A DNA stretch of 64,000 nucleotides from Candidatus Sulfotelmatobacter sp. (lineage in GTDB: Bacteria > Acidobacteriota > Terriglobia > Terriglobales > Acidobacteriaceae). The notes beneath the pieces are model-generated. The model saw only the letters and a program-made list of their open reading frames with translations. It was not told where the DNA came from and did no database searches. Location: assembly GCA_025462865.1 (NCBI GenBank), contig JAOAPI010000056.1, positions 1 to 64,000 of the forward strand, given 5' to 3'. The translations under genes and the position numbers were made by a program. Shown here piece by piece: positions 46,976 through 50,194 of this stretch (positions within the stretch are counted from its first letter, which is position 1; each line of letters begins with the position of its first letter).

Positions 46976-47755
46976 ATGGAACCCGCACTCATAGCCAAAC
47001 TGCTCCAGCCATTTCTGCGGGACGCCGGGGAACAACAACCTTTTGCGCACGACGCCCTTTACCATCATATATCGACGTACATCGATATACTCCTTCATTG
47101 GAACGCCCGCATCAACCTCACCGCCGTACGCGATCCGGAAGAAATAGTCACCCGACACTTCGGCGAATCCCTTTTTGCCGCCCGCCATCTATTTCCCGGC
47201 GCGGCCTCTGCGGAGAAGACCAGTCCCGCAGGCTCAAAGTGTCAACCGTTGATGTCCAATGCCCGCGTAGCTGACCTGGGTTCTGGCGCTGGATTCCCCG
47301 GGATTCCGATTAAACTCTGGGCTCCTCACATAGCCCTTACGCTGGTCGAATCCAACCACAAGAAGGCCACCTTCCTTCGCGAGGTCACCCGCACCCTTAC
47401 ATTGACGGACGTCGATATAACACACGCCCGTGCTGAAACTCTTCCACTCTCCAGTTTCGACGTGGTAACCCTGCGCGCTGTGGAACGTCTTGTCGACGTC
47501 CTGGCCACAGCCGTCGCGGTTCTAGTTCCCGCTGGCCGCTTGGCGCTACTGATCTCTTCTTCTCAACTCAACGCGGTACACCGGACGATTCCTTCCTTCG
47601 AGTTTGATGACCCGATTCCGGTTCCCGCGTCCGAATCACGTGTTTTACTGATCGGCAGGAAGCCCTTCAGGAACTCGGGACTAACGGATGTTCCCATGGG
47701 AACATCCGAGCAGTCGGCAGCGAAGCGTTTGCCGTCTGGACCATATGAAACCTAG
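46976..47755 (+). CDS. rsmG: 16S rRNA (guanine(527)-N7)-methyltransferase
   Basis: ILLHWNARINLTAVRDPEEIVTRHFGESL; VADLGSGAGFPGIPIKLWAPHIALTLVESNHKKATFLREV. Confidence 0.95.
   Translation: MEPALIAKLLQPFLRDAGEQQPFAHDALYHHISTYIDILLHWNARINLTAVRDPEEIVTRHFGESLFAARHLFPGAASAEKTSPAGSKCQPLMSNARVADLGSGAGFPGIPIKLWAPHIALTLVESNHKKATFLREVTRTLTLTDVDITHARAETLPLSSFDVVTLRAVERLVDVLATAVAVLVPAGRLALLISSSQLNAVHRTIPSFEFDDPIPVPASESRVLLIGRKPFRNSGLTDVPMGTSEQSAAKRLPSGPYET
47068..47089. repeat. 22-bp palindromic site, copy 1: TATATCGACGTACATCGATATA (inside rsmG)
   Basis: 8-bp perfect arms; only one mismatched pair across all 22 bp. Confidence 0.8.
47398..47419. repeat. 22-bp site, copy 2: TACATTGACGGACGTCGATATA (inside rsmG)
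   Basis: Aligned by eye to copies 1, 3, 4 and 5. Confidence 0.7.
47685..47708. promoter_or_regulatory. parS-like palindrome 1: CGGATGTTCCCATGGGAACATCCG
   Basis: Perfect 24-bp palindrome at the 3' end of the rsmG ORF. Confidence 0.75.
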
Positions 47756-47922
47756 GAACCAAGTCAGTAAGAGTGGTAAAACAATCATGTTCCACTGGTT
47801 TTATGCCAAGTTCCCGTACATAAATACTACACTTGTGGGACATTTATTCACTCCAAGCTTAACTCTTGCCTTGCCGAGTTTAGCGGCCAGGTTTCAGTTT
47901 AGCGCCGCAAGTCCGATCCCTC

Positions 47923-47938
47923 TGTTCCCGCCGGAACA
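47923..47938. promoter_or_regulatory. Imperfect parS-like site: TGTTCCCGCCGGAACA
   Basis: Near-palindrome sharing TGTTCC...GGAACA. Confidence 0.4.
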
Positions 47939-48018
47939 TTAAGCCTCCGCTATTTGCCTCCGTTCTCGGCGAGGCCCCTCCAGCGGCCGCGCGGATACGT
48001 AGCGTGCTGGCTTCTGAG

Positions 48019-48034
48019 TGTTCCCATGGGAACA
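48019..48034. promoter_or_regulatory. parS-like palindrome 2: TGTTCCCATGGGAACA
   Basis: Perfect 16-bp palindrome identical to the core of palindrome 1. Confidence 0.75.
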
Positions 48035-48091
48035 TCGTCGGCCACCTCGGCATGTCCTCTTCTCCTTGGCCGTCCAGTAATCATGGTTAAC

Positions 48092-48107
48092 TGTTCCCGT
48101 GGGAACA
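48092..48107. promoter_or_regulatory. parS-like palindrome 3: TGTTCCCGTGGGAACA
   Basis: Same arms, central dinucleotide GT instead of AT. Confidence 0.7.
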
Positions 48108-48213
48108 GCGGAACCTGTTTTGCACACAAATTCGACTTGTGCACAGCATTCGACGTTGCAATCGAAATACGAGTCGCATTATGCTGCGAACAGCTCTGGC
48201 TCCTGGACAATCT

Positions 48214-49017
48214 ATGGGACGCGTCATCGCTGTTGCCAATCAGAAGGGCGGCGTGGGCAAGACTACGACCGCCATTAACCTGGCCGCGTCCTTCGCGGCG
48301 GCCGAAGTGAACACCCTCCTCATTGACTGCGATCCGCAGTCGAATGCCTCGAGCGGGCTCGGACTCGTTAAAGATCCGGAGCGTGTTTCGACCTATCATC
48401 TGTTGCTCAGCGAGGCTTCGAGTGAACAAGCGCTTGCGACCACCGAACTTGAGCAACTCTGGATCATTCCTGCCCATAAGAATCTGATCGGGGCGAACAT
48501 AGAACTTGTCGAGGCAGAGCGGCGCGAATATCGCCTGCGGGACGCCATCGCGTCTCTGCGTGATCGCTTCACCTACATCGTTCTCGATTGCCCCCCCGCG
48601 CTCGATCTGCTCACCCTGAATGCGCTGGTGGCGGCTGATTCGGTTTTGATTCCCATGCAGGCGGAATACTTTGCGCTGGAAGGCATCAGCGAGCTGCTGG
48701 ATACCGTCGAGCGCATCCGGGTGGCGCTGAATCCAGGCTTGGAAATTGAGGGCGTGGTCCTGACCATGTTGGACGAACGCACCAATCTGGCGCAACAAGT
48801 GATGGCCGAACTCAAGAAATATTTCGGCGAAAAGCTGTGCGCCGCAAGCATCCCCCGGAACATACGGTTGGCGGAAGCGCCCAGCCACGGGAAGGCAGCA
48901 TTGGTGTACGACCCGAGGTCGAAGGGGGCGGAGAGTTATATACGCCTGGCCAAGGAATTGATGGGCAGGCATCTGGCTGCGGCGGCGAGTACTCCCGAAT
49001 CCGCGATCAGCGCCTGA
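48214..49017 (+). CDS. parA: ParA-family chromosome-partitioning ATPase
   Basis: MGRVIAVANQKGGVGKTTTAINLAASFAAAEVNTLLIDCDPQSNASSGLG. Confidence 0.96.
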   Translation: MGRVIAVANQKGGVGKTTTAINLAASFAAAEVNTLLIDCDPQSNASSGLGLVKDPERVSTYHLLLSEASSEQALATTELEQLWIIPAHKNLIGANIELVEAERREYRLRDAIASLRDRFTYIVLDCPPALDLLTLNALVAADSVLIPMQAEYFALEGISELLDTVERIRVALNPGLEIEGVVLTMLDERTNLAQQVMAELKKYFGEKLCAASIPRNIRLAEAPSHGKAALVYDPRSKGAESYIRLAKELMGRHLAAAASTPESAISA

Positions 49018-49018
49018 G

Positions 49019-49088
49019 TATATTGACGTAGATCGATCTATTGTTACATTGACATTTATCGATATATGCATCGACGTCCGTCGATATA
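49019..49088. repeat. Cluster of three 22-bp palindromic sites (copies 3-5) in the parA-parB gap
   Basis: 49019-49040 TATATTGACGTAGATCGATCTA; 49045-49066 TACATTGACATTTATCGATATA; 49067-49088 TGCATCGACGTCCGTCGATATA. The last two are directly abutting. Confidence 0.75.
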
Positions 49089-49141: not shown

Positions 49142-50194
49142 ATGACTGTAGCGGCAGAGAAAAAAGACGAGAGAGTCGAGAAGCGGCGAGCTTTGGGCCG
49201 GGGGCTTGAGTCGCTGTTGCCGGGCCCGCGAGCTGTGACGCCTGTACCTGTACCGAGTGGCACTGACGCAGAGGAAACGAAGGTCCCTCGCTTCGCTCGC
49301 GATGACAACCGTGCTCAGGACAAGAGTGTTGCGGTCGACGTGATTGCGATTCAGCCGCAGGCGACCCCAGGGAACCTGGTGGTGAGCCTGGACATTGGAG
49401 TGATCGACAAGAATCCTTATCAAACACGGTATGTCTTTGATGAGGAAGCGCTGGCCGAACTGGCGGACTCGATCAAGGAGCACGGAGTAGTACAGCCGGT
49501 GGTGGTCCGTCCGGCGCCGGAGGAAGGGCGCTACATCCTCGTCTTAGGCGAGCGGAGGTTGCGCGCCTCGAAGTTAGCGGGGAAGGATGTGATCCCGGCG
49601 CTGGTGCGGAAGGTTTCGCCGCAGCAGGCGGCGGAGATGACGGTGCTCGAGAATGTCGTGCGCGAGGATTTGAACCCTCTCGAACAGGCGGAGGCGTTCC
49701 GCGTGCTGAGCAAAGAGTTTCAGCTGACGCAGGCGCAGATTGCGGAGCGCGTTGGTGTATCGCGGGAGACGGTATCGAATTACATGCGGTTGCTACGTCT
49801 TCCCAAAAAAGTGATGGGCTACATGCTGGAGGACCGGCTTAGTTTCAGCGACGCGCGCCTGCTGCTGGCGTTGGAAAATGAGAATCTGATCGAAGAAGTC
49901 GCCGAAGAAGTGGTAACGCAGCATTTGAAGTGGGACGAAATCGAAGATCGGGTGGCGCGGCGGAACGGATCTTTGCCTCCGTTGCCGGCACAGACAGCCG
50001 AGCAGAAAAATGCCACAGGGCGAGGTGCGCGGTGGGTCGATCCGAATGTGCGGGCCGCGCAAACCGAGATGGAACGCACCCTCGGCATGCGCGTGAGAAT
50101 TAAAGATCGGAACGGCAAGGGCAGAATTGTGATCGAGTACGCCACGGTCGACGACTATGAGCGCGTCGTGGAGATGTTGCGGGCGAAAGCATAG
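49142..50194 (+). CDS. parB: ParB/Spo0J-family chromosome-partitioning protein
   Basis: RRALGRGLESLLPG; NPYQTRYVFDEEALAELADSIKEHGVVQPVVVRP; LGERRLRASKLAG; ENVVREDLNPLEQAEAF; HTH LTQAQIAERVGVSRETVSNYMRLLRLP. Confidence 0.95.
   Translation: MTVAAEKKDERVEKRRALGRGLESLLPGPRAVTPVPVPSGTDAEETKVPRFARDDNRAQDKSVAVDVIAIQPQATPGNLVVSLDIGVIDKNPYQTRYVFDEEALAELADSIKEHGVVQPVVVRPAPEEGRYILVLGERRLRASKLAGKDVIPALVRKVSPQQAAEMTVLENVVREDLNPLEQAEAFRVLSKEFQLTQAQIAERVGVSRETVSNYMRLLRLPKKVMGYMLEDRLSFSDARLLLALENENLIEEVAEEVVTQHLKWDEIEDRVARRNGSLPPLPAQTAEQKNATGRGARWVDPNVRAAQTEMERTLGMRVRIKDRNGKGRIVIEYATVDDYERVVEMLRAKA

Follow-up and report, generated by a model that had tools for sequence, protein, structure and literature searches.

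The interval between rsmG and parA in the window, a stretch of 64,000 nucleotides from the soil bacterium Candidatus Sulfotelmatobacter sp., was found to carry four TGTTCC-N4-GGAACA sites within 419 bp. Judged from sequence, we consider it probable, at roughly 0.87, that these four sites are the parS of this chromosome and are bound by the adjacently encoded ParB, which would have changed its reading of the central bases while keeping its reading of the arms. The system as a whole is almost certainly a chromosomal ParABS that departs from the canonical parS sequence.

Four parS-like sites between rsmG and parA

Site 1 (47689-47704, within the 3'-terminal part of the rsmG frame) and site 3 (48019-48034) are exact copies of TGTTCCCATGGGAACA, site 4 (48092-48107; TGTTCCCGTGGGAACA) differs from TGTTCCCATGGGAACA by one change, and site 2 (47923-47938; TGTTCCCGCCGGAACA) has intact arms around the centre CGCC; all four are listed without strand. 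The expected count of TGTTCCCATGGGAACA within three mismatches in 64 kb was 0.12, and when scored as TGTTCCN4GGAACA all four sites were exact, with no mismatch. A separate repeat finder grouped the same four sites as a single family. The central tetramers are CATG, CATG, CGTG and CGCC, as against ACGT in canonical parS, while half-site position 1 is G in all half-sites of the window and position 7 is A or G. An earlier note on this DNA had described three strong palindromes and one degenerate copy directly upstream of parA. The coordinates of the three palindromes held, and 47685-47708 is a perfect 24-bp palindrome with site 1 as its core, but the centre of the copy at 48092 is not self-complementary, and the supposedly degenerate copy at 47923-47938 has intact arms and differs in its centre alone. 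Likewise, the cluster does lie in the rsmG-parA interval, except that site 1 falls within the rsmG frame, and rpmH, which had been described as close, is about 16 kb off, at the end of the window.

The upstream neighbour, which overlaps site 1, is rsmG (gidB; 46976-47755, plus strand; TIGR00138, 5.6e-37). On the same strand follow parA (48214-49017), encoding a ParA/Soj-type ATPase of 267 aa (Pfam AAA_31, 6.8e-59), and parB (49142-50194), encoding a protein of 350 aa with an LGRGL-containing N-terminus, ParB_N with GERRLRA, HTH_ParB and ParB_C; the LGRGL and GERRLRA motifs are both readable in the translation. As expected of a ParABS locus, a ParA ATPase is thus encoded beside a ParB with ParB_N, HTH_ParB and C-terminal dimerisation domains.

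The cumulative GC skew reaches its minimum at 48616, inside parA and about 500 bp or less past site 4, and the nearby site cluster is therefore placed by skew at or near the replication origin. A DnaA-box-like TTTTGCACA (48118-48126, plus strand), one of two exact TTWTNCACA matches in 64 kb, is found 10 bp from site 4 with a near match, TTGTGCACA, at 48137, and is at most suggestive. Translations of the open reading frames located a jag-yidC-yidD-rnpA block at 60.5-63.9 kb, and DnaA- and DnaN-like frames are present at about 64.6-67.5 kb of the contig. The skew minimum lies about 16 kb from dnaA, and rsmG-parA, not dnaA, may be the place of the origin.

Genome-wide distribution of the sites

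A search of the genome of 6,076,742 bases gave four matches to TGTTCCN4GGAACA, all of them at the parAB locus and none outside it, against an expectation of about 0.33 from base composition; the reversed pattern gave no match in this genome. A cluster at parAB near the origin, with few or no sites elsewhere, is what a ParABS system should display, and four of four sites are placed accordingly. The same search of 6.08 Mb revealed no match to canonical parS within one mismatch, and hence none near the origin; the best match, with two mismatches, was on another contig in an unrelated place, and the sites of the window themselves lack the canonical ACGT centre. The earlier note had seen no perfect copy elsewhere in the 64 kb, and had proposed a genome-wide count of the motif and a check for the absence of canonical parS. 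Its first observation extends to the whole genome, in which the motif forms a single locus with no random scatter, and its reading of the palindromes as parS-type sites is borne out by their position in the interval that holds canonical parS in relatives, their restriction to one locus, the absence of canonical parS and the skew minimum.

Site centres across relatives

We scanned 20 parB loci from GTDB genomes and 80 loci from the family, the genomes of the relatives being fragmented and metagenome-assembled. Canonical TGTTCCACGTGGAACA was present in the rsmG-parA interval of 61 of the 99 related parAB loci scored, and is what other genera of the family carry there, with sites scored by fixed TGTTCC arms so that arm variants would escape. 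Among these canonical relatives ACGT formed the centre of 120 of 126 sites, and the central step was pyrimidine-purine in all 126. Members of the window's genus (public relatives named Ca. Sulfotelmatobacter or Acidobacteriaceae) kept the TGTTCC/GGAACA arms and had other centres. ACGT was found in none of the 52 sites of the window's subclade, where the half-site is TGTTCC[ACG][AG] and the central step is purine-pyrimidine (strand-symmetric NRYN) in 48 sites, and in none of the 40 sites of the sister subclade, where the half-site is TGTTCC-T[GT] and the centres are mostly TGCA, TTAA and TGAA. Centres in sister species included AACC, GACT, GGTT, GATA and TGCA; the sites of one species differed in centre, and both strand orientations were seen (GGTT and AACC at L014), which is how a double-stranded site should behave if its middle is read loosely. 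L070, which belongs to the genus clade, kept ACGT and also kept ParB E163, S228 and V229. On these comparisons, loss of the ACGT centre belongs to the lineage of Candidatus Sulfotelmatobacter and its near kin. In the wider phylum, 20 loci lacking an exact match to canonical parS had, for the most part, either an ACGT centre between variant arms or no site close by; those of their ParBs that could be read were of the GHAR type in alpha6 and of the SVR type in alpha8, departing from this in few cases.

Shifts of the centre were also observed in other genera. In L092 (G484, genus g256) three of three parAB-proximal sites were ATGT or ACAT, a single change away from ACGT, and the ParB residues were ancestral; this may be an early step of centre change. 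In g233 (L113 and L190, G461; L185, G517) the centre had become GCGC or TCGA in several copies along parAB, and the off-type sites of L113 were confirmed by the second species, G517; ParB residue 229 was T, not V, in G461, and H202 was kept in g233. In g226 (L085 and L189, G454) centres such as GTAA, TTTC, TTGC and TTTA were found, with eleven copies in the genome. The site shifts of g226 and g233 resemble that in the window's genus and are independent of it.

ParB changes alongside the sites

Residues are given in Caulobacter numbering, in which 163, 202, 205, 228 and 229 correspond to A198, D237, L240, K263 and W264 of the window's ParB. In a tree of 99 ParB rows the off-centre loci fell nearly all into one well-supported clade; the off-type loci outside it were L085 (g226) and L113 (g233), with L092 (g256) as a near miss. 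The region of the DNA-recognition helix alpha4 (G170 to L183) was almost unchanged between the groups. Position 163, which is E in the family, was A, V, Q or M in the window's genus, further contrasts were seen at 202/205 in helix alpha6, and positions 228-229, which precede and begin helix alpha8, were SV in the ancestral state, KW in the window's subclade and mostly T or N with L, V or I in the sister subclade. The set E163, S/T228 and V229, a rule picked after looking, was complete in all 61 ACGT loci that could be read and incomplete in 32 of the 33 loci with other centres; L092 (ATGT/ACAT) is the one exception, and in g226 (L085) the alignment at 228/229 is ambiguous. The tree holds three to five independent site changes, too few for the covariation of residues and sites to become significant in a sign test on independent pairs, with ancestry taken into account.

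Two single-residue explanations were rejected. H202 could not be the sole determinant, since canonical ACGT is found in many sister genera whose residue 202 is E, M, L or Q, and V229 alone fitted all ACGT loci but missed five clade-B loci in which V229 was kept and S228 changed.

Helices alpha4, alpha6 and alpha8 contact parS (Jalal et al. 2020, PMC7383237). An AlphaFold2 model, confident in the DNA-binding domain (block means about 90), showed the changed positions where three helices begin, at the N-terminal ends of 197-204 (position 163), 235-242 (201/202) and 264-274 (228/229). Residues 228/229 would be expected to make base contacts, and the residues at the starts of alpha3, alpha6 and alpha8 probably cause the changed centre preference.

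We propose that in the ancestor of Ca. Sulfotelmatobacter and its nearest kin the reading of the central ACGT by ParB was lost or changed, while the reading of the TGTTCC arms would have been kept through the unchanged recognition helix (R173 to G1), and that the site centres then drifted, subclade by subclade, under a looser or different preference. In the present chromosome a ParB dimer would recognise both TGTTCC arms, its altered helix ends giving a weak or newly biased reading of the centre, and would load at the sites as a CTP clamp and spread; ParA would then move ParB, completing a standard ParABS. Binding of ParB to the four sites, clamp loading and a role in chromosome segregation are all predicted by this scheme.

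Dispersed copies in sister species

Most sister species had 2 to 51 copies of TGTTCCN4GGAACA, and a few incomplete genomes had 0 or 1; the reversed control pattern gave 0 or 1 matches in sister species. Within the window's genus, G404, G403, G438, G084, G407, G406 and G397 had 18-51 copies per genome. Twenty dispersed regions from G084 and G397 (L144-L163) were examined and were nearly all intergenic. Copies in these two genomes were often paired, 26-27 or 71 bp apart, and in many cases AAGTTGTTGATT came about 27 bp later, within a conserved repeat of about 100 bp. Some of the intergenic copies, 27 in 10 of 45 genomes, belong to this composite repeat, site-N27-AAGTTGTTGATT, so a repeat element may have aided their spread. 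As many as 18 to 51 dispersed copies are unusual for parS, and the TGTTCC arms may also be part of another repeat.

In nine species the centre types of parAB-proximal and dispersed sites agreed at 0.66 against 0.19 when shuffled (p 1.5e-5, with values transcribed from lists and species that are not independent), an agreement that fits one reader for both. A further-reaching proposal is that ParB in this genus needs no defined centre and reads essentially TGTTCC half-sites, so that sites drift and in some species reach tens of intergenic positions, and ParB becomes a chromosome-wide organiser, no longer solely a marker of the origin, with species dialects; we think this rather unlikely.

Other readings of the palindromes

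The palindromes might instead be operators of another regulator, for example one of parAB, with the true parS located elsewhere or lost. The position of the sites upstream of parA would suit such a role, as would the many intergenic copies in some sister species, including those in the composite repeat. However, the relatives have canonical parS with the same arms in the same interval, the centre changes together with the DNA-binding domain of ParB, and no other parS-like site is left in the genome, and we thus consider operators very unlikely.

More doubtful still is a parS/Noc hybrid, in which ParB would have shifted to Noc-type recognition and would read C at half-site position 6. In Noc, Q173 serves for A1 and R201 for C6, while R173 of ParB reads G1 (Jalal et al. 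2020, PMC7383237). The form CC-CATG-GG, with C at position 6 as in the Noc site NBS (ATTTCCCGGGAAAT), is seen in two of the four sites, and variants described by Jalal et al. prefer such hybrid sites (PMC7383237). The Noc-like inner arms on which the earlier note had remarked are not supported, as TGTTCC...GGAACA is the ordinary parS arm of the family with the central four bases alone changed, and the CC..GG behind the CCC...GGG likeness is not fixed, as the sister centres listed above make plain. The window sites do not match NBS, keeping the outer G1 and having A or G at position 7. Moreover, the window's ParB has R173, Y179, R184 and S201 in place of the specificity residues Q173, K179, K184 and R201 of Noc, is encoded adjacent to parA and scored 192 bits against TIGR04285 (Noc), for which the cutoff is 315, and position 6 is A, G or T in sister species that share its residues 173 and 201. 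The hybrid was rejected on residues 173/201 and the variable centre.

It is least credible that these are RNA hairpins or terminator-like inverted repeats rather than DNA-binding sites: TGTTCC-N4-GGAACA could form a short stem capped by a free loop of four bases, which would explain the variable centre, but both strand orientations occur within the L014 cluster, the NRYN preference is strand-symmetric, ACGT is fixed at the same place in canonical relatives, and the dispersed copies matched no Rfam family apart from one sub-threshold match.

Comparison with known systems

With canonical parS/ParB (Spo0J; TGTTYCACGTGRAACA) the window shares a 16-bp near-palindrome with TGTTCC/GGAACA arms, clustering by parAB near the origin and a single ParB of standard architecture. 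It differs in the centre, which is CATG, CGTG or CGCC here and any of many tetramers in sister species, and in ParB at 163, 202, 205, 228 and 229. Chromosomal parS has been described as highly conserved (PMC7022226), and each of the 17 ParB proteins that Jalal et al. examined preferred canonical parS (PMC7383237). The laboratory-made ParB-to-Noc intermediates of the same authors (Jalal et al. 2020, PMC7383237) likewise had an altered or relaxed reading of parS without loss of function. In contrast to these, the window's case is natural and genus-wide, the site positions concerned are 6 and 7, and the accompanying residues are 163, 202, 228 and 229, not 173, 179, 184 and 201. The chromosomal ParB of Pseudomonas aeruginosa binds many parS half-sites in addition to the four full parS sites (PMC10419367); there the full sites remain, whereas the full sites of the window are without the canonical centre. 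In the literature searched, which covered few subscription papers, we found no report of the motif or of an altered parS core.

A genus with a changed core would be a natural record of a centromere and its reader changing together, with living intermediates in a species that has kept ACGT and a sister genus at ATGT, and with two more genera that show shifts of their own. It points to residues 163, 202, 228 and 229, which are not named as specificity residues in PMC7383237, and would offer ready-made orthogonal ParB-parS pairs. Searches for parS with a fixed consensus would miss such centromeres.

A second palindrome flanking the cluster

A second palindrome, approximately TATYGAYG-NN-CRTCRATA (TATCGACGTACATCGATA), was observed on both sides of the parS cluster, with copies inside rsmG (47070-47087 and 47400-47417) and in the parA-parB gap (49021-49038, 49047-49064 and 49069-49086). 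It recurred at corresponding positions in the majority of loci from the genus and its sister genera, was not found in the more distant loci with GHAR-type ParB, and in the window's genome was present at this locus only; it could be an origin element. The rsmG codons under its first copy were nearly fixed (ATA 96%, TCG 96%, ATC 100% and GAT 100%), compared with an average of 62% for the majority codon over rsmG as a whole, and a DNA site thus seems to have been selected within the coding sequence.
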